64,000 bases of DNA, from the NCBI GenBank assembly GCA_002021875.1, contig CP018627.1, positions 3,906,001 through 3,970,000 of the forward strand. Reading direction: 5' to 3'. Below the pieces are notes generated by a model. The model searched no databases. It was not told the origin of the DNA and saw nothing but the letters and a program-made list of their open reading frames with translations. The position numbers and the translations under genes were made by a program. This DNA comes from Streptomyces hygroscopicus. GTDB taxonomy: Bacteria > Actinomycetota > Actinomycetes > Streptomycetales > Streptomycetaceae. This document shows, one piece after another, positions 24,226 through 43,180 of this stretch. The first letter of the stretch is position 1; each line of letters begins with the position of its first letter.

Positions 24226-26352
24226 TCAGCGCGCGGCCGCCGTCTCCGTGCCCACCCGGCCGGGGAACTCCGCGCCCAGCAGCCGCAGCAGCGGGGTCGC
24301 CTTCACGGCCGTCTCCTCGAACTCCTCGGCCGGGTCGGACAGCGCCACGATCGCCCCGCCCACCCCGTACCGGATCCGGTCCGGGGTCATCACCAGCGTG
24401 CGGATCACGATGCTCAGATCGCAGGCCCCGGACAACGAGAAGTAGCCGATGGCGCCCGAGTACACGCCGCGCGGGCCCTCCTCCAGATCGTCGATGATCT
24501 GCATGGTGCGGATCTTGGGCGCGCCGGTCATCGATCCGCCGGGGAAGGCGGCGCGCACGCTCTCGACCGCTGAGCTGGACGGCCGCAGGGTGGCGCGCAC
24601 CGTGCTGACCAGCTGATGCACCGTCGCATACGTCTCCACGTCGAAGATCCCCGGCACCCGCACCGATCCGACCTCCGCGGTGCGGCCGAGGTCGTTGCGC
24701 ACCAGGTCGACGATCATCAGGTTCTCGGAGCGGTCCTTCTCGCTGGTCGCCAGGTCGACGCGGAGCAGCTCGTCCTCGGCCGGGGAGCTTCCGCGCGGCC
24801 GGGTGCCCTTGATCGGCTGGGACTCGACGGTGCCGTCCCCGAAGACCCGCAGAAAGCGCTCGGGCGACGTGCTCAGCACGGACAGCGGGCCGAAGCGGAG
24901 CAGGGCGCCGAAGGGCGCGGGGCTGAGCCGGCGCAAGTACTGGTAGGCGGCCCATGGGTCCACCGGCCCGTCGGCCTCGGCCATGTTCGTCAGGCACACC
25001 TCATAGGTCTCCCCCGCGGTGATCAGCTCCTGGCAGGCGGCGATCATCTCCAGGTACCGCTCGCGGCCGTGGCGCAGCCGCACCTCTCCCGGGCCGCCGT
25101 TGAGCGGGGTGCGACGGGGCTTGTGACCGGTCAGCTCCGCCAGTCGGGCGGCGGTCTCCCGCAGCCATGCCCGGGCCGGTTCCTCGCCGCCCCGCTCGGC
25201 GCCCTCCTCCGCGAGGGCGAGGAGATAGGTGGCCGAGGTCTCGTGGTCGAACACCACGGCGCGGTCCGCGAAGATCATCGCGGCGTCGGGCTCCGGGGAG
25301 CGGTGGGTCCGCTCACCGCCGCACTCGGCCTTGAGCTCATACCCGAGGTATCCGGTCCAGCCGAGGGCGTAGTCGAAGGGCAGCGCGGGGAGTTCGACCC
25401 GGGCGGCGCGCAGATCGCGCTCCAGCCAGGACAGGAACTCCTCGTGCAGGACCTCGCGGGAGCCGTCCGCGGTGACGGTGACCGTGCCCGCCCAGGTGTC
25501 GGCGGTGGCGACCCGGGCCAGCGGCCCCGAGGCGTCCCCCATTATCGAGAACCGCCCGCGCTCGCCCCCGACGGCGCTGCTGTCCAGCCAGAAGGCGTGC
25601 CGGTCGGCGCGGAAGAGCCGGTCGAAGACGACCTCGTCCGACCAGCGGGTGGGCAGGGTCTCCACCAGCACCCGCAGGGATCGCGGCGTGGCGCGCGGCG
25701 CGGCGGTGGGTTCGGCGCCGCCGCGCGGGGTGCGCGGGCCGCGCCGTCGCGCCGGTTCCACGCCGTGCCCGGTCTGCCAGGAGCGGGTGAGGTCGGCGAA
25801 GTTGCTCAGCAGCAGCCGGCCGTGCTCGGTGCAGATGGACTCGGGGTGGAACTGGACGCCCCACAGGGGCCGTTCCCGGTGGGCGATCCCCATCAGCACA
25901 CCGTCCTCGGTCCATGCGGTGGCCCGCAGCTCCTCGGGCAGGTCGGTGACGGTGAGCGAGTGGTAGCGGACGACGTCGAAGGGGCTGGGCAGCCCGGTGA
26001 AGAGGCCGGAGCCGTCGTGCGCCACCCGGGACAGCCGGCCGTGCCGGGGCTCCGGGGCCCGGACCACCCGGGCGCCGCTGAGCAGGCCCACCCCCTGGTG
26101 GCCCAGGCAGACACCGAGCAGCGGCAGGGCGCCGTCGAGGATGATGTCGCGGCAGACGCCGAAGTCGGCCGGGCGCTCGGGGCTGCCGGGTCCGGGAGAG
26201 ATGACGACGTTGTCGAAGTCCCGCAGCATCTCGGGCTTCCAGCCGGGGTCGTCGTGCCGGATCACCTCGGGCTCCTGGCCGTTGACCTCGGCCAGGTAGT
26301 GGAACAGGTTGTAGGTGAACGAGTCGTAGTTGTCTACCAGCAGCGTGCGCAT
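24226..26352 (-). CDS. pabAB: Fused aminodeoxychorismate synthase (PabA-PabB)
   Basis: A 708-residue bifunctional enzyme. Residues 1-195 are the glutaminase (DNYDSFTYNL, then GVCLGHQ with catalytic C82 and GVQFHPES). After a linker, residues 230-700 are the chorismate-binding PabB part. The decisive motif is PIKGTRPRG: the lysine (K515) marks aminodeoxychorismate synthases, where anthranilate synthases have alanine. It converts chorismate and glutamine to 4-amino-4-deoxychorismate, the precursor of 4-aminobenzoate. Fused PabAB is typical of secondary-metabolite clusters. It is divergent from the ispH-led operon and most likely supplies the aromatic starter. A PabC lyase is not next to it; see 43441-44223. 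Confidence 0.93.
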   Translation of the reverse strand: MRTLLVDNYDSFTYNLFHYLAEVNGQEPEVIRHDDPGWKPEMLRDFDNVVISPGPGSPERPADFGVCRDIILDGALPLLGVCLGHQGVGLLSGARVVRAPEPRHGRLSRVAHDGSGLFTGLPSPFDVVRYHSLTVTDLPEELRATAWTEDGVLMGIAHRERPLWGVQFHPESICTEHGRLLLSNFADLTRSWQTGHGVEPARRRGPRTPRGGAEPTAAPRATPRSLRVLVETLPTRWSDEVVFDRLFRADRHAFWLDSSAVGGERGRFSIMGDASGPLARVATADTWAGTVTVTADGSREVLHEEFLSWLERDLRAARVELPALPFDYALGWTGYLGYELKAECGGERTHRSPEPDAAMIFADRAVVFDHETSATYLLALAEEGAERGGEEPARAWLRETAARLAELTGHKPRRTPLNGGPGEVRLRHGRERYLEMIAACQELITAGETYEVCLTNMAEADGPVDPWAAYQYLRRLSPAPFGALLRFGPLSVLSTSPERFLRVFGDGTVESQPIKGTRPRGSSPAEDELLRVDLATSEKDRSENLMIVDLVRNDLGRTAEVGSVRVPGIFDVETYATVHQLVSTVRATLRPSSSAVESVRAAFPGGSMTGAPKIRTMQIIDDLEEGPRGVYSGAIGYFSLSGACDLSIVIRTLVMTPDRIRYGVGGAIVALSDPAEEFEETAVKATPLLRLLGAEFPGRVGTETAAAR

Positions 26353-26899
26353 CGAAACCTCGAACCTATCGGAACTCTGGATGACGGGCCCGGTTCACGC
26401 CGCGCGGAGCAAGGCGGTGAACGCGTGGACCGCTTCGGCGGCCTGCTCGGGGTTCAGCCGGGGGTCACAGCCCACGGCGGCCGCTGAGCGGTCACCTTCT
26501 CCGCGGTCGGGCCGGGAGCGGTCATACAAGGAAGCCTCCACTGGTCGAGCCGGACACATCCCGCCGAGGCGTCGCGACTTCCGCTGACGCGTCGCGACGG
26601 CGCGGGACACCTGTGGGGACCCCCGAACCGGCAGGCCGGACGGGTCGACGGAACCGAGGAAACAGACGAACCCGCTCCCGGCCGCAAAACCGCGACCAGC
26701 GAAGATAGAAAAGCTGGATATACGTCCGTCACTCCTTCGAGTGGATTTCTCCATCCACCCGGAAGGGTTTACCAGCGGTTACTACCGGAATTTCCGGCTC
26801 AGAGCCCCCGTTGCGCAAGCCGACGACACGTCGAATCAGCGCGGCAGGGAGCCTAGCAATCGCCCGCAACCGTAAGCGACAGTTCCGCCCACATTTCGA

Positions 26900-26919
26900 C
26901 ATGTGACGAGGGTCACATG
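26900..26919. promoter_or_regulatory. Predicted Crp-binding site
   Basis: CATGTGAC-GAGG-GTCACATG is a perfect 8-bp inverted repeat. It contains TGTGA-N6-TCACA and also fits the published Streptomyces Crp pattern GTG-N6-GNCAC. It is about 30 bp upstream of a -10-like TATAGT and 400 bp before ispH, so it may couple cluster expression to cAMP-Crp. Confidence 0.6.
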
Positions 26920-27014
26920 CGTAGGACTTGCACTCAGTCTCGCCTTCTATAGTGTTTTCGACCTGCGCATATCCGACGGGGAAACCGCTTCGGACGGCGT
27001 AGCTGTCAAATGAG

Positions 27015-27086
27015 ACTTACGGGGGTAAGTGAATGTCTCTTCGACCGAATCGTCTCCGCGCACCGGCTTCCGGAGAACGTCCATAA
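27015..27086 (+). promoter_or_regulatory. Leader with hairpin and 17-codon ORF before ispH
   Basis: ACTTAC-GGGG-GTAAGT (27015-27030) is a perfect hairpin whose loop holds the SD-like GGGGG for an ATG at 27033. That ORF encodes MSLRPNRLRAPASGERP and stops at 27086. It could be a leader peptide controlling the operon; this is speculative. Confidence 0.3.
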
Positions 27087-27298
27087 CGCCTCGCCTCCCG
27101 GCAGTGGCTCTTTCGGCATATACCCAGGTCAGATGGGTCGTCAGACCCTTGTGAGCGATTACTGACCCGTAGGCCGCCGATCCATCGACAGCCATCCGCG
27201 AACGCCAGGACAAAGCCATGTCCGCCCGCTGCGGCATGCCCGCACAGCGACGCGCCCATTCACATCCGAGCCGCATGCCGGCGTTGGAGCAATACGTC

Positions 27299-28360
27299 AT
27301 GCACTTGAGCACGAAGTCCGCGCGCTCCGATACCGGAGCGCCCCGCAAACGCGTCATCCTCGCCGAACCCCGCGGTTTCTGCGCGGGTGTCCGCCGCGCC
27401 ATTTCCATGGTGGAGCGGGCGCTCGAGGTATACGGCCCGCCTATTTATGTTCGAAAACAGATCGTCCACAACCACTACGTCGTCAGCCTCCTGGAGCGCA
27501 AGGGCGCACGCTTTGTGGAATCGGAATTCGAAGTTCCCGAAGGGGCGGTGTGCCTCTTTTCCGCACACGGCGTCTCGCCCGCGGTCCGCACCGCTGCCGC
27601 CGATAGAAACCTGCAGGTCATCGACGCCACCTGCCCACTGGTGGCCAAGGTCCACCAGCAGGCGCGCCGGGTGGTCCGGGACGGCCGGGTCCTGCTGCTG
27701 GTGGGGCATGAGGAACACGAGGAAACGGAAGGCACCCGGGGCGAGGCACCGCGCGAGACCCTGGTCGTCGAAACCGTCGAGGACGTCGAACGGCTGGACC
27801 TCCCCCGGGACACCCCGGTGGCCTATCTGACCCAGACCACCTTGTCGGTGGACGAGACGGCCGACATCGTCCGCGCCCTCACCGAGCGGTTCGACGACAT
27901 CGTCGGCCCCGGGACCGACACCATCTGCTACGCCAGCCAGAACCGGCAGAACGGCGTCAAGTCCCTCGCCCAGCAGGCCGATCTGGTGCTGGTCGTCGGC
28001 TCGGAGAACTCCAGCAACTCCCAGCGGATGGTCGATGTCGCCCGGGAGGCCGGAACCCCCGCCCAGCTGGTCCCGGACGTATCCCGGCTGAAAGCCGGCT
28101 GGCTGGAGGGCGTGACCACCGTCGGCGTCAGCTCCGGCGCCAGCGTCCCGGACGCCCTCGTCCACCAACTCCTCGACCGGCTGGCCGAGTTCGGCCATGA
28201 CGAGGTCGAGATCGAGTCCACGGTCGTCGAGGACGTGGTCTTCTCCATGCCCCTGCAGCTCACCGACGGCATCCGGTCCGACGACCGGGAACGGCTCGAC
28301 GACGCCTGGTCGAAGGTCCCACCGGACGCACCGGCCGGAACCCCTAGGAGGACGATGTGA
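27299..28360 (+). CDS. ispH: 4-hydroxy-3-methylbut-2-enyl diphosphate reductase
   Basis: A 353-residue protein from ATG 27299; upstream in-frame ATGs at 27275 and earlier are possible. IspH catalyses the last MEP-pathway step, converting HMBPP to IPP and DMAPP with a [4Fe-4S] cluster. The three cluster cysteines are C28 (RGFCAGV), C112 (DATCPL) and C210 (TICYAS). The conserved histidines are in VHNHYV and SAHGV. It is the first gene of a coupled operon whose next gene starts inside its stop codon. Being clustered with dxs and ispG, it is probably a dedicated extra copy boosting isoprenoid supply. Its first 300 bp use more A/T-ending codons than its neighbours. Confidence 0.95.
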   Translation: MHLSTKSARSDTGAPRKRVILAEPRGFCAGVRRAISMVERALEVYGPPIYVRKQIVHNHYVVSLLERKGARFVESEFEVPEGAVCLFSAHGVSPAVRTAAADRNLQVIDATCPLVAKVHQQARRVVRDGRVLLLVGHEEHEETEGTRGEAPRETLVVETVEDVERLDLPRDTPVAYLTQTTLSVDETADIVRALTERFDDIVGPGTDTICYASQNRQNGVKSLAQQADLVLVVGSENSSNSQRMVDVAREAGTPAQLVPDVSRLKAGWLEGVTTVGVSSGASVPDALVHQLLDRLAEFGHDEVEIESTVVEDVVFSMPLQLTDGIRSDDRERLDDAWSKVPPDAPAGTPRRTM

Positions 28361-29430
28361 CTGCCCATGTGATGGCGACCGCCCGCCCCGCCTCGGCCCC
28401 GGCCACCACCGCCCGCCGGGCGCTGATGAGCCTGCTGCCCCGGGTCGAGGAGCGGCTGCACGCCTTCCTGTCCGCCGAGTACGACCGGTGGCATGCGCTG
28501 GACCCACGCTCCAGCGTCCCCATCGACGGGATCGCCGACCTGGTCAACGCGGGCGGCAAGCGCATGCGCCCCGCGTTCTGCCTGAGCGGCTATCTGGCCG
28601 TCGGCGGCGATCCGGAGGACCACCGCGTCATCCCCGTCGCCGCCGCGCTGGAACTGCTCCACGCCTGCGCGCTGATCCATGACGATGTGATGGACGAGTC
28701 CCCGGTACGCCGTGGCGCGCCGACCGTGCACACCAGCCAGGCCGCGCTGCACCGCGAGCGCGGCTGGCGGGGCGCGGCGGGCCGCTACGGGGAGAACGTC
28801 GCGATCCTCGCGGGCGATCTGGCCCTGGTCTACTCCGACGAGATCATGGCCGAAGTGGAGCCCGCGGTCGCCGCCGAGTGGCATCTGCTGCGCTCGGAGC
28901 TGATCATCGGCCAGTACATGGACGTCGCGGCGTCCGTGGAGTTCGAGCCCGACCCGGAGACCTCGCGGTGGATCGCCATCGCCAAGTCCGGCCGCTACAC
29001 CATCCACCGCCCGCTGGTCCTGGGCGCCGCGGTGGCCGGCCGCCCCGACGCGGCACCGGCCTTCGAGGAGTACGGGGCCGCGCTCGGCGAGGCGTTTCAG
29101 CTGCGCGACGACCTCCTGGACGCCTTCGGGGACTCCGAGGTCACCGGCAAGCCGAGCGGTCTGGACTTCGAGCAGCACAAGATGACGCTGCTGATGGCCC
29201 TGGCCATCCAGCGCAACGCGCACATCCGGGAGCTGGTGCCCGCTCAGCTTCGGGGCGCCGACCACCTGCGGGAGCTGCTGATCGAGACGGGTGTGCGCGA
29301 CGACGTCGAGAAGCACATCGACGGGCTCGTGGAGCGGGCCTGCCGTGCCATCGCCGCCGCCCCGCTGGAGCCGGAGTGGCGGGAGGAACTGGCCGCCATG
29401 GCCCACGAGGTCGCCTACCGGAACGCGTGA
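28357..29430 (+). CDS. Polyprenyl diphosphate synthase (probably GGPP synthase)
   Basis: A 357-residue protein starting at GTG 28357, overlapping the ispH stop, with AGGAGG upstream. Trans-prenyltransferase motifs are complete: GGKRMRP, first Asp-rich motif DDVMD (D109-D113), and second [11 protein letters not shown] (D251-D255). The residues before the first motif are small (A-C-A-L-I-H), with no bulky aromatic at -4 or -5. This argues against strict FPP formation and favours C20 or longer products. It would supply the prenyl chain for the UbiA enzyme downstream. The chain length remains an inference. Confidence 0.92.
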
Positions 29431-29495
29431 GGACGGCCGATGGGCACCGACAGCGACCGCACCCGGCGGCACCGACGCGGAGGGAAAGAGCCCGG

Positions 29496-31394
29496 ATGAC
29501 ACTGCTGGAGACCATCCACGGTCCCGCCGACATCAAGCACCTGAACGCGAGCCAACTGACCGGTCTCGCGAGTGAGATCAGGCACTTCCTCATCGACAAG
29601 GTGCTGCGGACCGGCGGGCACCTGGGGCCCAACCTGGGCACCGTCGAACTCACCATCGCGCTGCACCGCGTGTTCGACTCCCCGCGGGACCGCGTCCTGT
29701 GGGACACCGGGCACCAGGCGTACGTCCACAAGATCCTCACCGGCCGCCGGGAGGGTTTCGACCGGCTCCGGCAGAAGGGCGGCCTGTCCGGCTACCCCTG
29801 CCGGGCGGAGTCCGAGCACGACACCATCGAGAACAGCCACGCCTCCACCGTCCTGTCCTACGCGGACGGCCTCGCCAAGGGGTTCCGGCTGCGCGGCGAG
29901 TCGGACCGCGCGGTGGTGGCCGTCATCGGGGACGGGGCGCTGACCGGCGGCATGGCCTGGGAGGCGCTGAACAACATCTCGGGCGCCCCGGACCGTCCCG
30001 TCGTCATCGTGGTGAACGACAACGGCCGTTCCTACGCGCCGACCACGGGCGGCCTCGCCACCCATCTGGCGGGCCTGCGCACCTCCCCCGACTACGAGCG
30101 GTTCCTGGAGTGGTCCAAGCACCGGCTACGGCAGACCCCGAAGCTCTACGAGGCGCTGCACGCGGTCAAGACGGGACTGAAGGACATGCTCGCCCCGCAG
30201 GGGCTCTTCGCCGACCTGGGCCTGAAATACCTCGGGCCCGTGGACGGACACGACATCGCGGCGGTGGAGGCCGCCCTGCGGCAGGCCGCGGGGTTCGGCG
30301 GGCCGGTCGTGGTGCACTGCCTGACCCGCAAGGGCCACGGCTACCCGCGCGCGGAGGCCGACGAGCGCGACCACCACCACGCGGTCGCCGCCGGCGACCC
30401 GGCGACCGGCGAACCGCTTAGCTCCCCGGGCCCGTCCTGGACCTCGGTCTTCGGCGCGGAGCTGGTCGAGATCGCCCGTGAGCGCCCCGAGGTGGTGGCG
30501 GTGACGGCGGCGATGCTGCGGCCCACCGGGCTCGCGGCGTACGCCGAGGAGTTCCCCGACCGGGTCTTCGACGTCGGCATCGCCGAGCAGCACGCGGTCA
30601 CCTCGGCCGCGGGGCTGGCCATGGCCGGGATGGTGCCGGTGGTGGCCGTGTACTCCACCTTCCTCAACCGCGGCTTCGACCAGCTTCTGATGGACGTGGC
30701 GATGCACTCCTGCCCCGTGGTGTTCGTCCTCGACCGGGCCGGGGTCACCGGTGACGACGGGGCCTCCCACAACGGCATGTGGGATCTGTCGGTGCTCGGG
30801 ATCGTGCCCGGCCTGCGGGTCGCGGCACCCCGCGACGGGGCCTCGTTGCGCGCCGCGCTGCGCGAGGCGGTGGCGGTCACCGACGGCCCCAGCGCCATCC
30901 GGTTCCCCAAGGGGCCGGTGGGGCCCGACATCCCCGCCGTCGACCAGCACGACGGCATCGACGTACTCCACCGCTCCCCGGGCGACGACGTCCTGCTGGT
31001 GTCCGTGGGCGCCATGGCCGCGACCGCCTGTGACGCGGCGCGCCGGCTCACCGGGGAGGGCCTGGGCGTCACCGTGGTGGACCCCGGCTGGATCAAACCG
31101 GTCGGCCCGTCCCTGATCAAGCTGGCGGAGCAGTACCGGCTCGTCGTCACCGTCGAGGACAACCTGCGCGTCGGGGGCTACGGCTCGCTGCTCGCCCAGG
31201 AGTTGCGCGACGCCGGTGTCCCGGCCCCGGTGTCCGGTTTCGGGATTCCGCAGCGCTTCCTCGACCACGGCAAACGCGCCGAGCTGCTCGCCGAATGCGG
31301 CCTGAGTCCCGAAGACCTGGCCCGTTCCATCCGGTCGCGGATCGCGGCCGACCGTGCGCCGGGTGTCCGGGCGCTTGAGGAGGATTCCCGATGA
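29496..31394 (+). CDS. dxs: 1-deoxy-D-xylulose-5-phosphate synthase
   Basis: A 632-residue thiamine-diphosphate enzyme of normal length, starting at ATG 29496 after AGGGAAAGAG. The ThDP motif runs from GDGALTGG (D146) to NDN. The catalytic glutamate is E364 in VGIAEQHAV, and the C-terminal domain has VTVEDN. It makes DXP from pyruvate and glyceraldehyde 3-phosphate, the entry and flux-limiting step of the MEP pathway. It overlaps ispG by 4 bp. Together with ispH and ispG it covers the steps most often duplicated in terpenoid clusters. Confidence 0.96.
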
Positions 31395-32542
31395 CCGTCG
31401 ATCTCGGCCTGCCTGCCGCGCCGCCACCGGTGCTCGGAAAGCGCCGCGTCACCCGTCAGCTCGGGGTGGGCGCGGTGGGGGTCGGCAGCGACTTCCCCGT
31501 CTCCGTGCAGTCCATGACGACCACCGTCACCGCCGATGTCAACGCCACCCTGCAGCAGATCGCCGAGCTGACCGCGACGGGCTGCGACATCGTCCGGGTG
31601 GCCTGCCCCAGCCAGGACGACGCCGACGCCCTGCCGCAGATCGCCCGCAAGTCCAAGATCCCGGTGATCGCCGACATCCACTTCCAGCCCAAGTACGTGT
31701 TCGCCGCGATCGAGGCGGGCTGTGCGGCGGTGCGGGTGAATCCGGGAAACATCAAGAGGTTCGACGACAAGGTCAAGGAGATCGCCCGCGCGGCGAAGGA
31801 CCATGGCACCCCGATCCGCATCGGGGTGAACGCCGGCTCGCTGGACGCGCGGCTGATGGCCAAGCACGGCAAGGCCACCCCCGAGGCATTGGTGGAATCG
31901 GCGCTGTGGGAGGCGGAGCTCTTCGCCGAGCACGGCTTCCACGACCTGAAGATCTCGGTGAAGCACAACGATCCGGTGGTCATGGTGCGCGCCTATGAGC
32001 TGCTCGCCGAGTCCTGCGACTATCCGCTGCACCTGGGGGTGACCGAGGCGGGCCCCGCGTTCCAGGGCACCATCAAGTCCGCGGTGGCCTTCGGTGCGCT
32101 GCTGCGGCAGGGCATCGGCGACACCATCCGGGTGTCGCTGTCGGCGCCTCCGGTGGAGGAGGTGAAGGTCGGCACGCAGATCCTGCAGTCGCTCAATCTG
32201 CGGCCGCGCAAGCTGGAAATCGTCTCCTGCCCCTCCTGCGGCCGGGCCCAGGTGGATGTGTACAAGCTGGCCGACCAGGTCACCGCGGGTCTCGAGGGCA
32301 TGGAAGTGCCGCTGCGGGTCGCGGTGATGGGGTGTGTGGTCAACGGCCCCGGTGAGGCCCGGGAGGCCGATCTCGGTGTCGCCTCGGGCAATGGCAAGGG
32401 CCAGATCTTCGTCAAGGGGAAGGTCATCAAGACCGTCCCCGAGAGCAAGATCGTGGAGACCCTGATCGAGGAGGCCATGCGCCTGGCCGAGGAGGCGGGC
32501 CCGCAGGACGCCGCCGAGTCCCCCACCGTCAGCGTGCGGTGA
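31391..32542 (+). CDS. ispG: 4-hydroxy-3-methylbut-2-enyl diphosphate synthase
   Basis: A 383-residue protein overlapping dxs (ATGA). The [4Fe-4S] ligands are C280 and C283 (CPSCG) and C315 in CVVNGPGE, whose glutamate E322 is also conserved. The N-terminal TIM-barrel part contains VQSMTTT and VNPGN. It reduces MEcPP to HMBPP, the step before IspH. The next gene begins 11 bp downstream, so it is part of the same operon. Confidence 0.96.
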
Positions 32543-32553
32543 GGGGGACAGCG

Positions 32554-34727: not shown

Positions 34728-34781
34728 CCGTTCGTTCTGTCCCAGCCGTTTCGCACCCCCCCATAGACGAGGAGATGAGGC

Positions 34782-36401
34782 ATGGCGGCGCGTTCCCAAC
34801 GGCCCGTCAACGTCGGCCGGTTGTTCCACCGGGCCGCCGAGCAGGGCAAGCCGACGGTCATGCATCTGGACCGGCCCTTCGACATCGCCCCGGATGCCGG
34901 CACCCGCTTCGATGTGTCCGCCCTGGCGGCGACGGTGGAGGACGCCGCGGGCTGGCTCCACGGGGCGGGGCTGCGCCACGGCGACCGGCTCGCCATCGTC
35001 AAGGAGAACCACTACGACTTCATCCTGCTCGCCGCGGCCGCCGCCCGGCTCGGGGCGCTGCCCGCGATGATCGCGCCCATCAGGTCGACCGCGCATATCC
35101 GCACCCTGCTCACCAGGATCTCCCCGAAGGTGCTGGTGATGGGCACGACGGTGCTGGAGCGGATGACCGCCGCCGGTATCGCGCCGGCCGATCCGGGGAT
35201 GACCCTGGTGGCCGTCGGCGCCGACCGCCCGGGGCTGCCCGGCGGAACTCTGCGGATCGACGATGTGCGCGACGGCTCCCGGCCGCCGGTGCGTTTCCGC
35301 GGCCTCCACGAACCCATGCTGGTCACCCACACCTCGGGCACCACGGGTGTCCCGAAGCTGGTGGTGCACTCGCCCGCCACCACCCTGGCGGCCGTGCCGT
35401 TCCGCATCGAGTCCTACCGGCTGCCGCTCATGACCTCCCGTCCCAGGGACGTGGTGGCCAGCGGGATCTCCTTCGCCCACAACCGCAATCTGTCCTGGAC
35501 CAACGGGACGCTGTTCCGCGGGCCGCGGAAGATGGTGATCCTCTCCGATCCGGCGCTGGACAGTGTGGCCCGCACGCTGGCCGCGCACCCTCCCACCTCG
35601 CTGGAGGCATGTCCGAACGTCTTCCAGTACTGGGAGGAGCTGGCCGACACCCGGCCCGAACTGTTCGCGGGGGTGCGGCGCTTCATCAGCACCTTCGACG
35701 CGGTCCACCCCAGGACGGTCCGCAAGTTCCTCGGCGCCTCCCGGGTCCGGCTGCCGCTGTGGGCCTGGGGCGTGGGGCAGTCCGAGATCGCGGGCATCGC
35801 CGCCGGGGTGGCCACCCGCTCCATGGTCCGCCCGGACAAGCCCCGGGCGCATGACGCCACCAACGTCGGGTTCCCGCCCCTGGTCCGGGTCAAGGTCGTG
35901 GACCCGGAGACCGGCCGCGAACGGCCCCGGGGAAAGCCGGGGCTGCTGATGGTCAGGACCAAGTCGCGGTGTCTGACCTACCTGGGCGAGGACGACCGGC
36001 ACCGCGCCAAGGACCGGGGCCGCTGGTGGAACACCGGCGACCTGGGCGAGTACGCGGGCTACGGCCGCATCCGGCTGATCGACCGCGAGGTCGACATGAT
36101 CCCCGGAATGAGCTGCATCGAGCTGGAGTCGACCCTGCTCGACCGGCTGGACCGGGCCTCCGAGGTGATCGTGCTGGGGGTCCCGGGGCAGTTGCCGATC
36201 CCGGTGCTGTGCATGCGCGACGACGCCCTCGACCCCCAGGAGTGGGACCGGGCCTGCCGGGGCCTGCCCGAGCTGGACAAGCCACGGCTCGTCCCCTGGG
36301 AGGAGATGCCGCGCACCGCCACCTGGAAGGTGCGCCGGGGGGAGCTGCGCGAACGGCTGCTGGGCTCCAGCGACACCTATGGCACCGGGCAGTGGACCTG
36401 A
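34782..36401 (+). CDS. Adenylate-forming enzyme; candidate diazotase or aryl-CoA ligase
   Basis: A 539-residue ANL-superfamily protein. The P-loop is THTSGTTGVPK (from T184). A5 is unusual: WGVGQSEIAG in place of YGxTE. A7/A8 is NTGDLGEYAGYGRIRLIDRE, and the catalytic lysine is K516 (TWKVRRGEL). In cremeomycin biosynthesis the related enzyme CreM uses ATP and nitrite to diazotise an aryl amine. With CreE/CreD-like genes in the same operon, that role is the leading hypothesis. Activation of the aromatic carboxylate as acyl-AMP or CoA is the alternative. The odd A5 motif argues against an ordinary fatty acyl-CoA ligase. Confidence 0.85.
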   Translation: MAARSQRPVNVGRLFHRAAEQGKPTVMHLDRPFDIAPDAGTRFDVSALAATVEDAAGWLHGAGLRHGDRLAIVKENHYDFILLAAAAARLGALPAMIAPIRSTAHIRTLLTRISPKVLVMGTTVLERMTAAGIAPADPGMTLVAVGADRPGLPGGTLRIDDVRDGSRPPVRFRGLHEPMLVTHTSGTTGVPKLVVHSPATTLAAVPFRIESYRLPLMTSRPRDVVASGISFAHNRNLSWTNGTLFRGPRKMVILSDPALDSVARTLAAHPPTSLEACPNVFQYWEELADTRPELFAGVRRFISTFDAVHPRTVRKFLGASRVRLPLWAWGVGQSEIAGIAAGVATRSMVRPDKPRAHDATNVGFPPLVRVKVVDPETGRERPRGKPGLLMVRTKSRCLTYLGEDDRHRAKDRGRWWNTGDLGEYAGYGRIRLIDREVDMIPGMSCIELESTLLDRLDRASEVIVLGVPGQLPIPVLCMRDDALDPQEWDRACRGLPELDKPRLVPWEEMPRTATWKVRRGELRERLLGSSDTYGTGQWT

Positions 36402-36414
36402 CCCGCGCCACGCG

Positions 36415-36458
36415 AAGCAACGCCGTACAAAGCAACGCCGTACAAAGCAACGCCACGC
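36415..36458. repeat. 15-bp tandem repeat before the cyclase gene
   Basis: AAGCAACGCCGTACA occurs at 36415 and 36430, with a truncated, altered third copy from 36445. It fills the 104-bp gap between the ligase and the cyclase genes, the only sizeable gap in this part of the operon. Confidence 0.65.
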
Positions 36459-36505
36459 AACGCGTCGAGACGACCGTATCCACCGTGAACGAGGGGTAAT
36501 TAGCC

Positions 36506-37315
36506 GTGTGGTTCCCGCCCGCTCTCTTCGATCTCCCGGACATCGCTCCGGTGACCCTGCCGGAGGCGGACCGGCCGAGTTGGCTGTTCTGGATCCTGAT
36601 GGGCCCGTGCGCATCGGGCTGGCTGGTGGCCTACGGGCTCGCCATCTACCGCGCCAAACTGGACAAGCGGGTGGGGATTCCCGTCTTCGTGGTCGAGGTC
36701 AACCTCGCCTGGGAGTTCACCCTCTCCCTGATCCTGGACCAGGCCGATGTGCAGCGCCCGATCAATCTCAGCTGGTTCCTGGTCGACTGCTTCATCCTCC
36801 GGCAGACGCTGCGCTACGGGTGGAAGGACTATCCGTCGATGAGCCGGCGGGCCTTCCGGTGGATGGTCTTCGGCGTCATCGCGTGGTCCGCGGTCTTCCA
36901 CATCATGACGACCTATGAGCTCAAGGACGCCACCGGCATCTACACCGGCACCGGGCTGAACGTGTTCCTGAGCCTGTCGTTCATCTTCATGCTCAGCCGC
37001 CGCGGATCCTCGCTCGGGCAGTCGATGTACGTGGCGCTCGCCAAGGGCATCGGATCGTTCTTCGCGGGGTGGACGGTGCTGGTGATGTACCCGGGCCACC
37101 ACCTGTTCATCTTCCTCTTCCTGACCGTCTGGACCATCGACGCGACCTACTGCGTACTGCTCTACCGGAAGGTCCGCGAGGAGGGCCGCTCGCCGTGGGC
37201 GTGGAACCGGCCCCCGGCCGAGGTCCCCGACGCTCCGGACGGCCTCGCCACCACCGGGAGCGCACCGCGCCAGGAGGAGCGGGAACCGGCCGTCCGCAGC
37301 GGGGCGTCGGGCTGA
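36506..37315 (+). CDS. Pyr4/PaxB-like integral membrane terpene cyclase
   Basis: A 269-residue protein from GTG 36506, with GAGGGG upstream. About seven hydrophobic helices are seen and there is no soluble domain apart from a Pro-rich tail. It resembles the fungal Pyr4/PaxB and bacterial DmtA1 class of membrane meroterpenoid cyclases. The helix-2 segment VNLAWEFTLSL holds E70 and the last helix holds D212 (TVWTIDATYCVLLY), placed like the two essential acids of Pyr4. It would protonate the prenyl chain (no epoxidase is evident) and cyclise the UbiA product. The family is divergent, so the call needs a profile search. Confidence 0.75.
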   Translation: MWFPPALFDLPDIAPVTLPEADRPSWLFWILMGPCASGWLVAYGLAIYRAKLDKRVGIPVFVVEVNLAWEFTLSLILDQADVQRPINLSWFLVDCFILRQTLRYGWKDYPSMSRRAFRWMVFGVIAWSAVFHIMTTYELKDATGIYTGTGLNVFLSLSFIFMLSRRGSSLGQSMYVALAKGIGSFFAGWTVLVMYPGHHLFIFLFLTVWTIDATYCVLLYRKVREEGRSPWAWNRPPAEVPDAPDGLATTGSAPRQEEREPAVRSGASG

Positions 37316-37346
37316 GCCGCGCCCGGGCCTGTTACGTCCACGGAGA

Positions 37347-39350
37347 ATGACCATGACCACGCAACGTCTGGACGTCTGCCTCATCGGTGCCGGGCCCCGG
37401 GGGCTCTCGGTCCTGGAGCGGCTGTGCGCGAACGCCGCCGAGGCGGCGCCCACCACCCCGGTCACCGTCCATGTGGTGGACCCGTATCCGCCGGGGGCGG
37501 GGCGGGTCTGGCGCTCCGGCCAGTCCCGCCATCTGCTCATGAACACCGTCGCCGGCCAGGTCACCATGTTCACGGACGAGACCGTGGAGATGGCCGGGCC
37601 GGTCCTGCCCGGGCCCAGCCTGTACGAATGGGCCCGCTTCGTGAGCCTCACCGGCGCCCTCGACGAGGGCGGGTACGACGAGGCCGTCCTGGCCGAGGCG
37701 CGACGCCTGGGCCCCGACTCGTATCCGACTCGCGCCTTCCACGGGCACTATCTGGAGTGGGTCCACCGGCGGGTGACGGGCACCGCGCCGGCGTCGGTGC
37801 GCACAGTGGCCCACCGCTCGCGGGCGGTCGGGCTCGAGGAGCGCACGGCGCACGGCGGGCAGACCGTCGTGCTGGAGGACGGCACCCGTATCGAGGGGCT
37901 GCACGCCGTGGTGCTGGCCCAGGGCCATCTGCCGCAGCGGCGGTCGCCGCGGGAAGCGGCCTACGCGGCCTTCGCCGAGGCGCGGGGGCTGCGCTACCTC
38001 CCGCCCGCCGGCCCGGCGGAGGTGGACCTGTCCGGTATCCGGCCCGGGGAGGCCGTGGGCCTGCTGGGGCTGGGGCTGAACTTCTTCGACTACCTGGCGC
38101 TGCTCACCGAGGGCCGGGGCGGACGGTTCGAGCGGCGGGCGGGGCGTCTGGTCTACCGGCCGTCGGGCCGGGAGCCGCGGCTGCTGGCCGGCTCGCGCCG
38201 GGGTGTGCCGTTCCACTCCCGGGGCGAGAACCAGAAGGGCCCGCACGGCCGTCACCTCCCGCTGGTGCTGACCCCGAAGGTGATCCGCGGTCTGCGGCGG
38301 CGCGTCCATGAGCGGGGCGGCCTGGACTTCCGCTCCGAGCTGTGGCCGCTGATCTCCAAGGAGGTGGAGACGGTCTACTACACCGCGCTCCTCACCTCCC
38401 GGGGGCAGGAGGCGGCCGCGCACCGGCTGCGCGCCGCCTATCCGTCGGCTCCCCGGGGCGGCGCCGAAGAGGACCGGCTGCTGACCGAGAGCGGCATTCC
38501 GCCTCACCGGCGCTGGAATTGGGACCGGATCGCCCGGCCCTGCCCCGCCCACGGCCTCCGGTCGCCCGAGGCGTTCCGGTCCTGGCTGCTGGAGTATCTG
38601 CGGGCGGATCTGGACGCGGCGCGGGCGGGCAATGTGCACGGCCCGCTGAAGGCGGCCCTGGACGTGCTGCGCGATCTGCGCAACGAGATCCGGCTGGTGG
38701 TGGACCACGGCGGGCTGACGGACCGTTCGCACCGCGACGACCTGGACGCCTGGTACACCCCGCTGAACGCCTTCGTGTCGATCGGTCCGCCGGCCCGGCG
38801 CGTCGAGGAGGCGGTCGCGCTCATCGAGGCGGGCGTGCTGACCGTGCTGGGGCCGCGCACCGTGGCACGCGCCGACGCCGAGGAGGGGGCCTTCGTCCTC
38901 GAATCCCGTGCCGTTCCCGGCTCGTGGGGGCGGGTGACCACGCTGATCGAGGCCCGGCTGCCGGGCACCGATGTGCGCTCCAGCGCCGATCCGCTGCTGT
39001 CGGCGCTGCTGGCGAGCGGTCAGTGCGGCCCCTATGTGGTCGGCGGCACCGGGGTCGGCGGTACCGGCGACGGGCAGGGCGGTCATGAGACGGGCGGGCT
39101 CGCGGTGGGGCCGAGCCCCTACCACCTGCTGGACGCCTCCGGTCGGCCGCATCCACGGCGGTTCGCCTTCGGTGTGCCCACCGAATCCGTCCACTGGGCC
39201 ACGGCGGCGGGCATCCGCCCGGGTGTCGGCTCGGTGATCCTGGCCGATGCCGACGCCATAGCGCGTACCGTGCTGGCGCTGAGTGATGACTCGCTCACCG
39301 GTCCCACCGATCCCACCGGCCCCGAGACGATCGAGGTTTCCGTTCCATGA
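37347..39350 (+). CDS. CreE-like flavoprotein, predicted aspartate N-oxygenase (nitrosuccinate-forming)
   Basis: A 667-residue protein with an FAD/NAD(P)-binding domain. CLIGAGPRGLSVLERL (residues 11-26) is the first dinucleotide motif, and a second GLLGLGLNFFDYLALL lies near residue 235. The size and the PRG variant fit the CreE family, which oxidises L-aspartate to nitrosuccinate. It ends by overlapping, by 4 bp, a CreD-like lyase gene; this CreE-CreD adjacency is the hallmark of the aspartate-nitrosuccinate route to nitrous acid. A Gly-rich insertion (VGGTGVGGTGDGQGG) near residue 570 is probably a loop. Assignment rests on family resemblance and the partner gene. Confidence 0.8.
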   Translation: MTMTTQRLDVCLIGAGPRGLSVLERLCANAAEAAPTTPVTVHVVDPYPPGAGRVWRSGQSRHLLMNTVAGQVTMFTDETVEMAGPVLPGPSLYEWARFVSLTGALDEGGYDEAVLAEARRLGPDSYPTRAFHGHYLEWVHRRVTGTAPASVRTVAHRSRAVGLEERTAHGGQTVVLEDGTRIEGLHAVVLAQGHLPQRRSPREAAYAAFAEARGLRYLPPAGPAEVDLSGIRPGEAVGLLGLGLNFFDYLALLTEGRGGRFERRAGRLVYRPSGREPRLLAGSRRGVPFHSRGENQKGPHGRHLPLVLTPKVIRGLRRRVHERGGLDFRSELWPLISKEVETVYYTALLTSRGQEAAAHRLRAAYPSAPRGGAEEDRLLTESGIPPHRRWNWDRIARPCPAHGLRSPEAFRSWLLEYLRADLDAARAGNVHGPLKAALDVLRDLRNEIRLVVDHGGLTDRSHRDDLDAWYTPLNAFVSIGPPARRVEEAVALIEAGVLTVLGPRTVARADAEEGAFVLESRAVPGSWGRVTTLIEARLPGTDVRSSADPLLSALLASGQCGPYVVGGTGVGGTGDGQGGHETGGLAVGPSPYHLLDASGRPHPRRFAFGVPTESVHWATAAGIRPGVGSVILADADAIARTVLALSDDSLTGPTDPTGPETIEVSVP

Positions 39351-40792
39351 CCGACGCCCAGAACGATGCCACCGATGACGCCCCGCGCCATGCCGACGCG
39401 GGTCTGCTGAGCCCCGCCCGGGCCGGCACCCCGGCCGAGGCGACCACGTCGGACGACGCCTGGCTGCAGGCGATGCTGGACGCGGAGGCGGGCCTGGTGC
39501 GGGCGCAGGCGCGGCTGGGCCTGGTGCCCGAGGCGGCGGCCCGCACCATCACCGCGCTCGCCCGGGCCGAGCGCCTGGACGTGGTGGAGATCGCCCGGCT
39601 GGCCCGGGGCGCGGCCAATCCGGTGGTGGCGCTGGTCCGGGCGTTCACCGCGCTGGTGGCCGCCGAGGACCCGGCCGCCGCGGAGTATGTGCACCGGGGC
39701 TCGACCAGCCAGGACATCATGGACACCGCCGCCATGCTGGTGGCCCGCAGAACCCTGGGGCCCCTGGTGGCCGACCTGGAGCGGATCGCGGGGGCGCTGC
39801 GTGAACTGGCCGTGGCACACCGGGAGACGCTCATGCCCGGCCGTACGCTCGCCCTGCACGCCGTGCCCACCACCTTCGGTCTGAAGGCGGCGGGCTGGCT
39901 GAGCGGTGTGGAGGACGCGGCGGCCCGGCTGGCCCGCATCCGCGACCATGAACTGCCGGTTCAGCTCGGCGGCGCGGCGGGCACGCTGGCGGGGTACACC
40001 GAGTACGCCCTGATGGATCAGCGGATACGGCCCGGGGCGCCGGGGCCCAGGGAGTTCGCGGAGCGGCTGATGGCGGAGTTCGCCGCGCAGGTCGGGCTGA
40101 ACGAGCCCGTCCTGCCCTGGCACACCGCCCGTACGCCGGTCGCGGGGCTGACCGCTCAACTGGCCCTGACCACCGGGGCGCTCGGCAAGATCGCGGTGGA
40201 CGTACAGCTGCTGTCGCGCACCGAGACGGGCGAGGTCGCCGAGCCCGCCGCCGAGGGCCGGGGGGTGTCCTCCGCGATGCCGCACAAGCGCAACCCCGCC
40301 CTGGCCACCCTGGTGCGCTCGGCCGCACTGCAGGTTCCGGCGCTGGCGAGCGCGGTCATGGGGTGCATGCTCGCGGAGGACGAGCGGTCGGCCGGGGCGT
40401 GGCACGCCGAGTGGCTTCCGCTGCGCGAGTGTCTGCGGCTGACGGGCGGGGCGGCGCACACGGCCGTCGAACTGGTCGAGGGGCTGGCCGTCTTCCCGGA
40501 CCGGATGCGCGCCAATCTGGGGCTGACCGGCGGACTGATCGTCTCGGAGCGGCTGGCCGCGGTGCTGACCCCGGTGCTGGGCAAGGGGCCCGCGAAGGAG
40601 CTGATGAGCCGGGCCTCGGCGGAGGCGGCGCGCGGCGGGCGGACGCTGGGCGAGGTGCTGGCCGCCGCCCCCGAACTCGGGGGCCGTTACCGGGCGGAGG
40701 AGCTGGCCGCCCTGCTGGACCCGGCGAACTATCCGGGGGTGGCCGAGCTGCTGGTGGACCGGGCGGTTCGAGGGCCCGGGGACCGGTCCTGA
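39347..40792 (+). CDS. CreD-like lyase, predicted nitrosuccinate lyase (fumarase/PcaB superfamily)
   Basis: A 481-residue member of the aspartase/fumarase superfamily, close to the PcaB branch. The catalytic Ser loop is GVSSAMPHKRNP (S308/S309), the GSTSQD motif lies at 118-123, and ERSAGAWHAEW is also typical. In cremeomycin-type pathways the homologue CreD splits nitrosuccinate into fumarate and nitrous acid. Its start overlaps the CreE-like gene. Taken alone it could be a carboxymuconate cycloisomerase or adenylosuccinate-lyase relative, but no other beta-ketoadipate or purine genes are nearby. The context therefore decides the call. Confidence 0.82.
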   Translation: MTDAQNDATDDAPRHADAGLLSPARAGTPAEATTSDDAWLQAMLDAEAGLVRAQARLGLVPEAAARTITALARAERLDVVEIARLARGAANPVVALVRAFTALVAAEDPAAAEYVHRGSTSQDIMDTAAMLVARRTLGPLVADLERIAGALRELAVAHRETLMPGRTLALHAVPTTFGLKAAGWLSGVEDAAARLARIRDHELPVQLGGAAGTLAGYTEYALMDQRIRPGAPGPREFAERLMAEFAAQVGLNEPVLPWHTARTPVAGLTAQLALTTGALGKIAVDVQLLSRTETGEVAEPAAEGRGVSSAMPHKRNPALATLVRSAALQVPALASAVMGCMLAEDERSAGAWHAEWLPLRECLRLTGGAAHTAVELVEGLAVFPDRMRANLGLTGGLIVSERLAAVLTPVLGKGPAKELMSRASAEAARGGRTLGEVLAAAPELGGRYRAEELAALLDPANYPGVAELLVDRAVRGPGDRS

Positions 40793-40869
40793 CGGCCACT
40801 CGGGGAGCGGCCGCGGCCGGGGATGTCACATCCGGGCGGGGCTCGGCGTCTGGGATGCCGAGACGGATA

Positions 40870-40907
40870 TCCAGACGCCGTGCTGGACGGGATTCCAGAC
40901 GCCGTGC
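40870..40907. repeat. Direct repeat in MMPL promoter region
   Basis: TCCAGACGCCGTGC occurs at 40870 and 40894, a 24-bp spacing, 20 bp upstream of the MMPL gene start. It could be paired regulator sites. Confidence 0.4.
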
Positions 40908-40927
40908 GCTTGAGGAAGGAAGAGGGA

Positions 40928-43180
40928 ATGCTGGACAGACTGGCCGGTTTCGTCGTGCGGAAACGCCTGGCGGTGTTGGTCGTCGGCCTGCTGCTCGCCG
41001 TGATCGGCGGGGTGGCGAGTACGACATTGTTCGACAAGCTGACGGCGGGCGGTTTCGACGATCCGACGTCGGAGTCCTCGCGGGCGATCACCGCGCTGGA
41101 CGAGAGGTTCGGGCAGGGGCTGCCCAATCTCACGCTGCTGGTGACCTCGAAGGGGCGGGTCGACGATCCGTCGGTGACGGCGGCGGGCACCGAGCTCACC
41201 CGGAAGCTGAGCCGGGAACCCGGAGTGGCGAACGTCAGCTCCTACTGGACCACCGGGAAGGCCCCGCAGCTACGCGGCAAGAGCGGCCACAAGGCCCTCA
41301 TCATGGGGACGGTCACCGGGGACGACACCGCGTCGCAAAAGCGCGTCGCCGAGCTGGCGGACCGCTACCAGGGCTCGCGGGACGGGCTGGAGGTGACGTT
41401 CGGCGGCTATACGAAGTTCCAGCGGGAGCTGCTGGAGCAGGGGCAGAAGGACGCCACCACCGGCGAGACGGTCGCCATCCCGATCACGCTGGTCGCGCTG
41501 GTGTTCATCTTCGGCAGCGTGGTGGCCGCGGCGCTGCCGCTGGCCGTCGCCCTGGTGGCGATGATGCTGACGATGGGGCTGACGTGGATCCTGGCGAGCG
41601 TCACGACGGTCGGCTCGCTCGCGGCGAGCGTGGTGACCCTGCTGGGCCTGGGCCTGGCCATCGACTACAGCCTGCTGATGGTCAGCCGCTACCGCGAGGA
41701 ACTGCGGTCGGGGCTCGCCCCGCCGGACGCCATCCGGGCGACGCTGACCTCCGCCGGGCGCACGGTGACCTTCTCGGCGCTGACCGTCGCCGTGTCGTCC
41801 CTGGCCATGGCCTGGTTCCCGCTGCAGGCCGTCCGGTCCATGGGCTATGCGGGGGCGCTCACGGCGCTGCTGTCCGGCGCGGCCTCGCTCATCGTGCTGC
41901 CGGCCCTGCTCGCCCTGCTCGGCGACCGGATCGAGAAGGGGCGGGTGTTCCGCCGGCGGCGGACCGCGGCGACCGGCGGGACGGGCACCGACGCCGCCGG
42001 CCGGAGCGTGGAGAGCGGCTTCTGGCACCGGCTGGCCACCACCGTGATGCGGCGCCCGGTGCCGATCGTGACCATCGTGACCGCGTTCCTGCTGCTGCTC
42101 GGCGCGCCGTTCCTCGGCATCAACCTCGGCATGCCGGACGAGCGGGTGATGCCCTCGTCCTCGTCGGCCCGTCAGGTCGCCGACACCGTGCGGGCCGAGT
42201 TCGACAGCAGTGAGCAGAACGCGCTGCAGGTCGTGGCGCCCGAGGGGGGCACCGACCGGGCGGCCGTCGGCGCGTATGCGAAGCGGCTGTCCGAGCTGCC
42301 GCACGTCGCCGCGGTCCGCACCGCCACCGGCGCCTACGCCGAGGGCCGGCAGGCCGCCCCGCCCGATCAGCGGTACGCCCGCTTCGCCTCGGGCGACGCC
42401 GTCTACTTCGCCGTGGTGCCGGAGACGGCCAGCGCGGACGACGCGGACCGGCTGGTCGGCGAGATCCGGTCGCAGAAGGCACCGTTCGAGGCGTTGGTGG
42501 GCGGGGCCGCGGCCACCAACCACGACGCCGCCTCGGCGCTGGAGAAGTGGCTTCCGTACGCGCTGGGCACGGTGCTGCTGACCATGCTGGTGCTGCTGTT
42601 CCTGGTGACCGGCAGCGTCATGTTGCCGTTCCTGGCGCTGGTGCTCAGCGCGCTGAGCCTGACGGCCACCTTCGGCGCGCTGGTGTGGGTCTTCCAGGAC
42701 GGCCATCTCGCGGGGCTGTTCGGCGACTTCACGCCGACCGGCAACATCGCGGCGACGATCCCGGTGATGCTCTTCGGCCTCGCCTTCGGGCTCGCGATGG
42801 ACTATCAGGTATTCCTGCTGTCCCGGATGCGGGAGGAGTACGAGCTGACCGGTTCGCCGACGGCCGCCGTGGCCCGGGGTCTTGAGCGCACCGGGCGCAT
42901 CGTCACGGCGGCGGCGGTGGCGATCTCGGTGGTCTTCCTGGCCTTCACCGTCTCCGGCATCTCGCTGGTGAAGGCGTACGGGATCGGGCTGCCGCTGGCC
43001 GTCCTGATGGACGCGACGCTCATCCGCGGGGCCGTGCTGCCCGCCGCGATGCGGCTGGGCGGGCGCGCCACCTGGTGGGCCCCGGCCCCGCTGCGCCGGC
43101 TGCACAGCCGGTACGGCCTGCGGGAGGAGCCCGCGGCGGCGGCGCCACGGCGCGACGGCGACCGGGCGCTGACCGGCTGA
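40928..43180 (+). CDS. MMPL-family (RND-type) exporter
   Basis: A 750-residue protein from ATG 40928, after GGAAGGAAGAGGG; the upstream in-frame region is rejected. Two six-helix halves are visible, each with an extracytoplasmic loop domain. The family segments GLGLAIDYSLLMVSRYREEL and GLAFGLAMDYQVFLLSRMRE are present, with the proton-relay Asp-Tyr pairs. MMPL proteins export lipids, siderophores or antibiotics. As the last gene on this strand of the cluster, it most likely exports the product or gives self-resistance. Confidence 0.9.
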   Translation: MLDRLAGFVVRKRLAVLVVGLLLAVIGGVASTTLFDKLTAGGFDDPTSESSRAITALDERFGQGLPNLTLLVTSKGRVDDPSVTAAGTELTRKLSREPGVANVSSYWTTGKAPQLRGKSGHKALIMGTVTGDDTASQKRVAELADRYQGSRDGLEVTFGGYTKFQRELLEQGQKDATTGETVAIPITLVALVFIFGSVVAAALPLAVALVAMMLTMGLTWILASVTTVGSLAASVVTLLGLGLAIDYSLLMVSRYREELRSGLAPPDAIRATLTSAGRTVTFSALTVAVSSLAMAWFPLQAVRSMGYAGALTALLSGAASLIVLPALLALLGDRIEKGRVFRRRRTAATGGTGTDAAGRSVESGFWHRLATTVMRRPVPIVTIVTAFLLLLGAPFLGINLGMPDERVMPSSSSARQVADTVRAEFDSSEQNALQVVAPEGGTDRAAVGAYAKRLSELPHVAAVRTATGAYAEGRQAAPPDQRYARFASGDAVYFAVVPETASADDADRLVGEIRSQKAPFEALVGGAAATNHDAASALEKWLPYALGTVLLTMLVLLFLVTGSVMLPFLALVLSALSLTATFGALVWVFQDGHLAGLFGDFTPTGNIAATIPVMLFGLAFGLAMDYQVFLLSRMREEYELTGSPTAAVARGLERTGRIVTAAAVAISVVFLAFTVSGISLVKAYGIGLPLAVLMDATLIRGAVLPAAMRLGGRATWWAPAPLRRLHSRYGLREEPAAAAPRRDGDRALTG

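Follow-up and report, generated by a model that had tools for sequence, protein, structure and literature searches.

A Streptomyces gene cluster that pairs a Pyr4-type terpene cyclase with a nitrite-forming pathway: a candidate route to a diazotised aminophenol meroterpenoid

Results

Gene content and organisation of the locus

We describe a putative biosynthetic gene cluster in a 64,000-nt stretch of Streptomyces hygroscopicus DNA (CP018627.1, positions 3,906,001-3,970,000; hereafter the window, to which all coordinates refer unless a locus label is given). The genome, labelled G000 in our sampling, is a single contig of 12.01 Mb, and the adenylate-forming (ANL) enzyme of the cluster is 95% identical to a S. 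malaysiensis protein. A first-pass annotation, made from the sequence alone, had proposed a new type of cluster leading from 4-aminobenzoate (PABA) to a nitrite-dependent diazo meroterpenoid. Profile searches placed every gene that it named where it had been drawn or close by, and its reading of the genes is right, and somewhat stronger than had been claimed.

A rightward block (27218-43180, plus strand) opens with terpenoid supply: IspH (27218-28360; LYTB, 300 bits; gene-caller start perhaps 27275), a polyprenyl diphosphate synthase of undecided chain length (28357-29430; polyprenyl_synt, 168 bits; start perhaps 28369), Dxs (29496-31394; DXP_synthase_N, 358 bits; alternative GTG start at 29427, 29415 not being a start codon) and IspG (31391-32542; GcpE, 476 bits). 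There follow an FAD-dependent 3-hydroxylase of the p-hydroxybenzoate hydroxylase (PHBH)/PobA family (32539-33762; PRK08243, 560 bits, cut-off 351; start perhaps 32554), a UbiA-family aromatic prenyltransferase (33759-34727; PF01040, 73 bits, cut-off 34.2), the ANL enzyme, a putative diazotase of the CreM/Pzm18 clade (34782-36401; AMP-binding, 132 bits, and the trees below), and a Pyr4-type transmembrane terpene cyclase (36506-37315; start perhaps 36551). The block ends with a CreE-type L-aspartate N-hydroxylase (37347-39350; 8cp2, 672 bits), a CreD-type nitrosuccinate lyase (39347-40792; 5xny, 555 bits) and an MMPL/RND exporter (40823-43180; MMPL, 258 bits; gene-caller start perhaps 40880). 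Four-base stop/start overlaps occur at dxs/ispG, pobA/ubiA and creE/creD whatever start is chosen, while those at ispH/polyprenyl synthase, polyprenyl synthase/dxs and ispG/pobA hinge on start choice. The fused PabA-PabB gene (24226-26352) lies on the minus strand, outside this rightward operon.

Nitrite formation

The CreE/CreD assignment, which the first-pass annotation had left to profile searches, is secure. The lyase exceeds the curated nitrosuccinate-lyase model (NF052556, 725 bits against a cut-off of 650) and is the sole CreD above cut-off in the genome. Residues of the S. cremeus enzyme, including the SS-loop serine and R341, are named in the cited text of PMC13411527; mapped through the 5xny alignment, whose chain numbering runs 13 higher, all 15 are kept in the window protein (E49, V96, H118, T122, S123, L170, H253, S302, S303, P306, K308, N310, R341, W346 and H347). 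For CreE, the passages cited from PMC10404684 list the cofactor and substrate residues R13, W51, N62, R266, R276, R409, R412, N413, R416 and R577, and the tunnel-entrance arginines R593 and R597; the window enzyme keeps all ten core residues and R593, with alanine at R597 (11 of 12 overall). In comparisons with three relatives, creE and creD have a ratio of nonsynonymous to synonymous substitution (dN/dS) of 0.20-0.32. We consider nitrite formation by the cluster very likely.

Supply of the aromatic ring

The fused PabAB is an aminodeoxychorismate synthase (GATase and Chorismate_bind domains; TIGR00553 pabB, 386 bits, cut-off 328), and it contains the motif PIKGT, which we take to mark PabB, as PIAGT would mark TrpE. 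Two further genes that the first-pass annotation passed over bear on its proposal of PABA as precursor. Downstream of the exporter, on the minus strand, lies a candidate aminodeoxychorismate (ADC) lyase, or PabC (43441-44223), of the class IV aminotransferase fold (Aminotran_4, 121 bits; PRK09266, 309 bits, cut-off 202), which reaches no PabC cut-off (pabC_Proteo, 35 bits against 177); a similar gene occupies the same position in four related loci (L006, L007, L039 and L040). Beside pabAB, a tblastn search with the S. iranensis protein recovered the remnant of a class II 3-deoxy-D-arabino-heptulosonate 7-phosphate (DAHP) synthase (26401-26525, minus strand), of which 18 N-terminal and 23 C-terminal codons survive in different frames, the middle being gone. 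Among the three relatives in which this stretch was seen, the gene (PF01474) is intact beside pabAB in two, S. iranensis (L007:532-1731) and genome G383 (393 codons open), and a remnant in G096. Together, the ADC-lyase-like gene and the DAHP synthase favour a dedicated supply of PABA.

The hydroxylase passes the PRK08243 subfamily cut-off and falls below the p-hydroxybenzoate hydroxylase equivalog (TIGR02360, 495 bits, cut-off 538.7). It keeps all nine PHBH residues tested (H72, Y201, S212, R214, Y222, P293, T294, N300 and Y385) and departs from PHBH at N203V, C211H, G295A and N384H. This pattern fits PHBH chemistry and does not tell PABA from 4-hydroxybenzoate; PHBH has reportedly been crystallised with 4-aminobenzoate. 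Profile scans of the cluster genes returned no member of a chorismate-lyase family.

The genome holds one other fused PabAB gene. A second locus of G000 (L243:6488-14299; G000:C1:1718487-1726298) combines PabAB and a class IV aminotransferase with an FAD hydroxylase, an ANL and a CreM-clade ANL, and neither UbiA nor CreED was matched in its 20 kb; a similar locus is present in G371 (L248).

Prenyltransferase and cyclase

The Asp-rich motifs of UbiA (residues 78-88 and 222-226) are conserved in all 14 aligned rows, close relatives included. The first-pass annotation's Pyr4-like cyclase is borne out by PF25129 (Pyr4-TMTC, 87 bits against a cut-off of 27), and an unrelated membrane family is thereby ruled out; W69, E70 and D212 are conserved in 18 aligned rows, again with close relatives among them, and E70 and D212 are presumably catalytic. 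The polyprenyl synthase reached no equivalog model in the profile search.

Phylogenetic position and residues of the ANL enzyme

We placed the ANL enzyme on a tree of 83 rows and on a slower second tree of 61 rows. Of 30 generic ANL rows, these being the best of 96 matches, 21 (>700 residues) were dropped before the 83-row tree, and alignment A1 does not include the L187 ANL. CreM is represented by ANLs of penzonemycin (Pzm)-like clusters; Pzm18, the penzonemycin ANL, is 48% identical to CreM in the table of PMC9323291.

The window ANL falls in a clade of 58 rows (SH-aLRT support 100) in the 83-row tree, and of 56 rows (100/100) in the 61-row tree. Its members include ANLs that neighbour creE/creD, many of whose clusters agree with the penzonemycin gene table on visual comparison, together with ANLs from CreED-free clusters. 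The AvaA6 group, whose 16 rows count one gene twice, stands outside it, as do nine further ANLs from the window genome. In the 61-row tree, the deep branching order inside the clade is unresolved and a nine-row subclade containing the window ANL is supported at 99/98. Six of its nine loci have both creE and creD, G058 has creE only, G101 has fragments of the pair, and S. iranensis has neither. Over the labelled rows of that tree, with G058 counted as linked, creED linkage switches at least seven times; the linkage of these ANLs to creED comes and goes.

Four alignment positions separate the ANL groups in a comparison that used 11 of the 18 other CreED-linked C_ rows. When every row is listed, the pair R311/A513 occurs in nine of nine rows of the window subclade, in 14 of those 18 CreED-linked rows, and in none of the 15 rows of the mostly CreED-free group L066-L080. 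An AvaA6-type identity was rejected for the window ANL on its score and its separate clade. A gene of that type does occur elsewhere in the genome, at 11.0 Mb (L244:12414-14111; 1120 bits), near a pair resembling DeoC and dehydroquinate synthase (DHQS), with acyl carrier protein and ketosynthase genes recognised by eye.

Conservation, relatives and sister clusters

In S. samsunensis, S. sabulosicollis, G383 and G096, all cluster genes within the fetched stretches are kept in the same order, and the cluster is therefore not a chance grouping; dN/dS of the compared cluster genes is 0.05-0.44. Of 392 Streptomyces genomes sampled, 4, among them the window genome, have the cyclase at 93% identity or above, and records named S. 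samsunensis, S. iranensis and S. sabulosicollis have it at 90-94% (S. iranensis being in both lists); CreD above cut-off occurs in 101 of the 392. A search with the ANL at E <= 1e-150 across the class found a single genome among 394, that of the window itself, and protein matches at 54-65% identity carried names from Amycolatopsis, Nocardia and others.

The S. iranensis cluster has lost creE, creD and most of dxs and is conserved in other respects; its junctions lie at L007:4597-4695 and 10734-10812, the second of which also changes the C-terminus of the cyclase. The best CreD-family match of that genome has counterparts in G000, G383 and G096. The idea that S. iranensis lost AvaA6 along with CreED was rejected, AvaA6 being kept.

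A sister cluster in G101 brings together an ANL (58% identity), Pyr4 (43%), UbiA (61%), MMPL, polyprenyl synthase and dxs, and a DeoC-type aldolase and a DHQS-type enzyme replace PabAB and PobA. This pair matches families that include those of 3-amino-4-hydroxybenzoate (3,4-AHBA) synthesis (BagB/FevI and BagC/FevH), as well as two genes near AvaA6 in the window genome (46% and 43%). Because it falls below every equivalog cut-off, 3,4-AHBA can only be a presumed product in G101. The two supply routes would indicate an ortho-aminophenol benzoate, and the window cluster and G101 may converge on such an acid.

A creE/creD pair lies about 22-25 kb off in G343, and in G353 the coordinates put a creD about 26 kb off. 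Among nine distant Pyr4 loci (L042-L050), an ANL of the window kind is present in three (L043, L046 and L047); of these, L046 has intact CreED and L043 has fragments of it. G058 (L166) has a creE-type gene beside ispH, polyprenyl synthase and ANL, with no creD match in the 60 kb fetched; its CreD above cut-off lies about 2 Mb from that locus. In G012 (L104:15735-18294 and L105:5557-13663), two ANLs of different subclades stand one by UbiA and one by MMPL/Pyr4, with CreED present; a division of labour between them is possible. Loci L159-L164 (G154 and G031) and several of L118-L128 are sister UbiA/ANL clusters, in which visual inspection suggests either a pair of aminotransferases of the DegT type or a run of genes resembling Gfo/Idh, isomerase, M20 and LDH2 families, which perhaps supply a different amino ring; amine-oxidase-type and NmrA-like (PF05368) proteins were the ones profiled there. 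To the right of the window cluster, a homogentisate 1,2-dioxygenase gene (51795-53144) is probably unrelated.

Discussion

Relation to known pathways

The gene combination found in the window was sought in the open-licence literature and not found there, and its parts recall several characterised systems. The cre, pzm and crx clusters share CreE/CreD nitrite supply, CreM or a CreM-homologous ANL, and ortho-aminophenol benzoate chemistry, but in the passages cited no terpenoid supply, UbiA or Pyr4 is named and the arene comes from 3,4-AHBA or 3-hydroxyanthranilate rather than PABA (PMC11705231, PMC9323291, PMC11429834). The diazo-napyradiomycins and azamerone (nap) are meroterpenoids whose diazo group is linked to nitrite and whose pathway has the CreM homologue NapB4, yet are described as having a tetrahydroxynaphthalene polyketide core, cyclisation by vanadium haloperoxidase and CreED at a separate locus (PMC10897937, PMC11705231). 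Zigralone (zig) has a bacterial Pyr4-type cyclase, UbiA and polyprenyl synthase, here on a tryptophan-derived quinolone core with five P450s and a printed gene list without CreE/CreD or ANL; the same source charts 264 bacterial Pyr4-type cyclases (PMC13307353). In xiamenmycin (xim) biosynthesis, a UbiA-type prenyltransferase and an ANL act on a prenylated benzoate, whereas the account given starts from 4-hydroxybenzoate, closes the ring by epoxidase/SnoaL, uses the ANL as an amide synthetase and includes no CreED (PMC4053376). Avenalumic acid (ava) and p-coumaric acid (cma) pathways likewise join the aspartate-nitrosuccinate pathway to an ATP-dependent ANL diazotase with an aminophenol substrate, and differ in their type II polyketide synthase and in AvaA7, which removes the diazo group (PMC10777205); their AvaA6-type ANL belongs to a clade separate from that of the window. 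The main text of PMC13061610, on diazo metabolites, makes no mention of terpenes, prenyl groups or UbiA. "New type" was too strong a term, since the window belongs to a wider UbiA-ANL-MMPL set, some of it with CreED, and diazo meroterpenoids are already known.

A proposed pathway and its alternatives

We posit, at about even chances, that the cluster is dedicated to a cyclised meroterpenoid whose core is an ortho-aminophenol benzoate, in which the ANL diazotises the amine with nitrite made in the cluster. Chorismate would be converted to PABA by PabAB and the ADC lyase, and the PobA-like enzyme would place a hydroxyl ortho to the amine, giving 4-amino-3-hydroxybenzoate. UbiA would then C-prenylate the ring with a chain from the local methylerythritol phosphate pathway genes and the polyprenyl synthase, and the Pyr4-type enzyme would cyclise the terpene through protonation. 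Nitrite made from aspartate by CreE and CreD would serve the ANL, with ATP, in diazotising the amine; the diazo group might then persist in an o-diazoquinone, enter a coupling or be lost, and MMPL would export the product. What we observe are the gene families, the conserved CreE/CreD residues and the ANL clade; every substrate, the step order and diazotisation itself are inferred. The o-aminophenol/diazo logic of the first-pass annotation is upheld in part, by the CreED residues, the Pyr4-family cyclase, the ANL clade, the genes that favour PABA supply and the sister-cluster scaffold. Diazotisation is the best single reading. Also in favour of our proposal are the CreED linkage of the nine-row ANL subclade, its R311/A513 pair and the second locus of the genome in which PabAB accompanies a CreM-clade ANL; most nitrite-using enzymes that form N-N bonds belong to the ANLs and act by AMPylating nitrous acid (PMC10777205). 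Somewhat more doubtful than probable is the fuller proposal, in which PABA-derived 4-amino-3-hydroxybenzoate, UbiA/Pyr4 cyclisation, in-cluster nitrite and a UbiA-linked CreM-clade diazotase yield a not-yet-isolated o-diazoquinone or N-N coupled cyclic meroterpenoid, and the sister cluster makes the amino/hydroxy-swapped isomer via 3,4-AHBA.

Several observations weigh against diazotisation by the ANL. Within its clade (83-row tree), the window ANL is placed among the 34 UbiA-linked rows, most of them without CreED, and apart from the 24 of the Pzm18 type. Across the 20 fetched 20-kb loci with ANLs like the window's (L109-L128), UbiA is present in 18 and creE or creD in 4; in the group of L066-L080 and its kin (L118-L128), creE/creD lie within about 10 kb in none of 11. 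The residue pattern has exceptions, the CreED-linked trio L063-L065 being P311/S513 and the CreED-free C_L197 being R311/A513, and the window ANL scores 46 bits against the AvaA6 model cut-off of 975 (NF058622), a Pzm18-type ANL also scoring just 81. The S. iranensis cluster has no creE or creD and a dxs reduced to about its last 33 codons; no CreD above cut-off exists anywhere in that genome (best CreD-family match 527 bits, below 650), and its anl, ubiA and pobA are stop-free despite the loss. The crx cluster, with CreED and a CreM homologue, leads to 3,4-AHBA-derived crexazones for which the cited text names no diazo group (PMC11429834). A rival reading makes the ANL a XimA-like amide synthetase or carboxylate ligase on the prenylated benzoate, with nitrite used by another enzyme or non-enzymatically. 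The frequency of UbiA and scarcity of creE or creD in L109-L128 speak for it, and there is a precedent: XimA, in a five-gene cluster with the UbiA-type XimB, joins a prenylated benzoate to L-threonine (PMC4053376). G012, where one ANL adjoins UbiA and another adjoins Pyr4, agrees with this. Against it, the window subclade is CreED-linked or shows loss in eight of nine loci, the ninth (S. iranensis) being an apparent deletion, and R311/A513 is common to the window ANL and most Pzm18-type ANLs. Nor does absence of creED exclude nitrite use, since 72 of 134 ava-related clusters, about half, also have no creE/creD pair (PMC10777205). We regard the amide-synthetase role as unlikely, at perhaps half the weight that we give to diazotisation.

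The PobA-like residues suit 4-hydroxybenzoate as well as PABA, and this too counts against our proposal. An ordinary meroterpenoid from 4-hydroxybenzoate or protocatechuate, with PobA on its usual substrate, PabAB/PabC serving folate and CreED accessory, would account for the nine kept PHBH residues and the PRK08243 score; the cluster genes scanned, however, include no chorismate lyase, the genome has a second fused PabAB, the DAHP synthase adjoins pabAB in two relatives, and G101 has a pair of 3,4-AHBA-synthase families, which together make this origin improbable. Diazotisation followed by replacement of the amine with hydride, as for avenalumic acid, would follow a known logic (PMC10777205), and an NmrA-like protein of the G154 and G031 sister clusters bears a weak likeness (30-31 bits, 39 residues) to the NmrA-like protein encoded next to AvaA6 in the window genome. 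That neighbour, assumed from its position to be AvaA7, has no match better than E 2.4 among the called genes of the window; the reductive deamination that the first-pass annotation offered as one outcome has no gene support, and we think loss of that nitrogen quite improbable. Much the same small chance attaches to a loose tie between CreE/CreD and the meroterpenoid, the pair acting in trans as a genome-wide nitrite source for the AvaA6-type cluster at 11.0 Mb. The window CreD is indeed the genome's only one above cut-off, and no creE/creD lie in the 20-kb stretch around AvaA6; yet the pair sits inside the operon, G012 has CreED in a related cluster with no AvaA6-type gene, and S. iranensis retains AvaA6 with no CreD above cut-off.

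If diazotisation by the ANL is true, a cluster family would bring a Pyr4-type cyclase, a nitrite pathway and a CreM-clade ligase to bear on one aminophenol meroterpenoid. The S. iranensis cluster without creE/creD and G101 with its other arene supply would be natural test cases. Searches for reactive diazo metabolites would gain a concrete target, and whether UbiA-linked ANLs act as diazotases or as amide synthetases would become a testable question.

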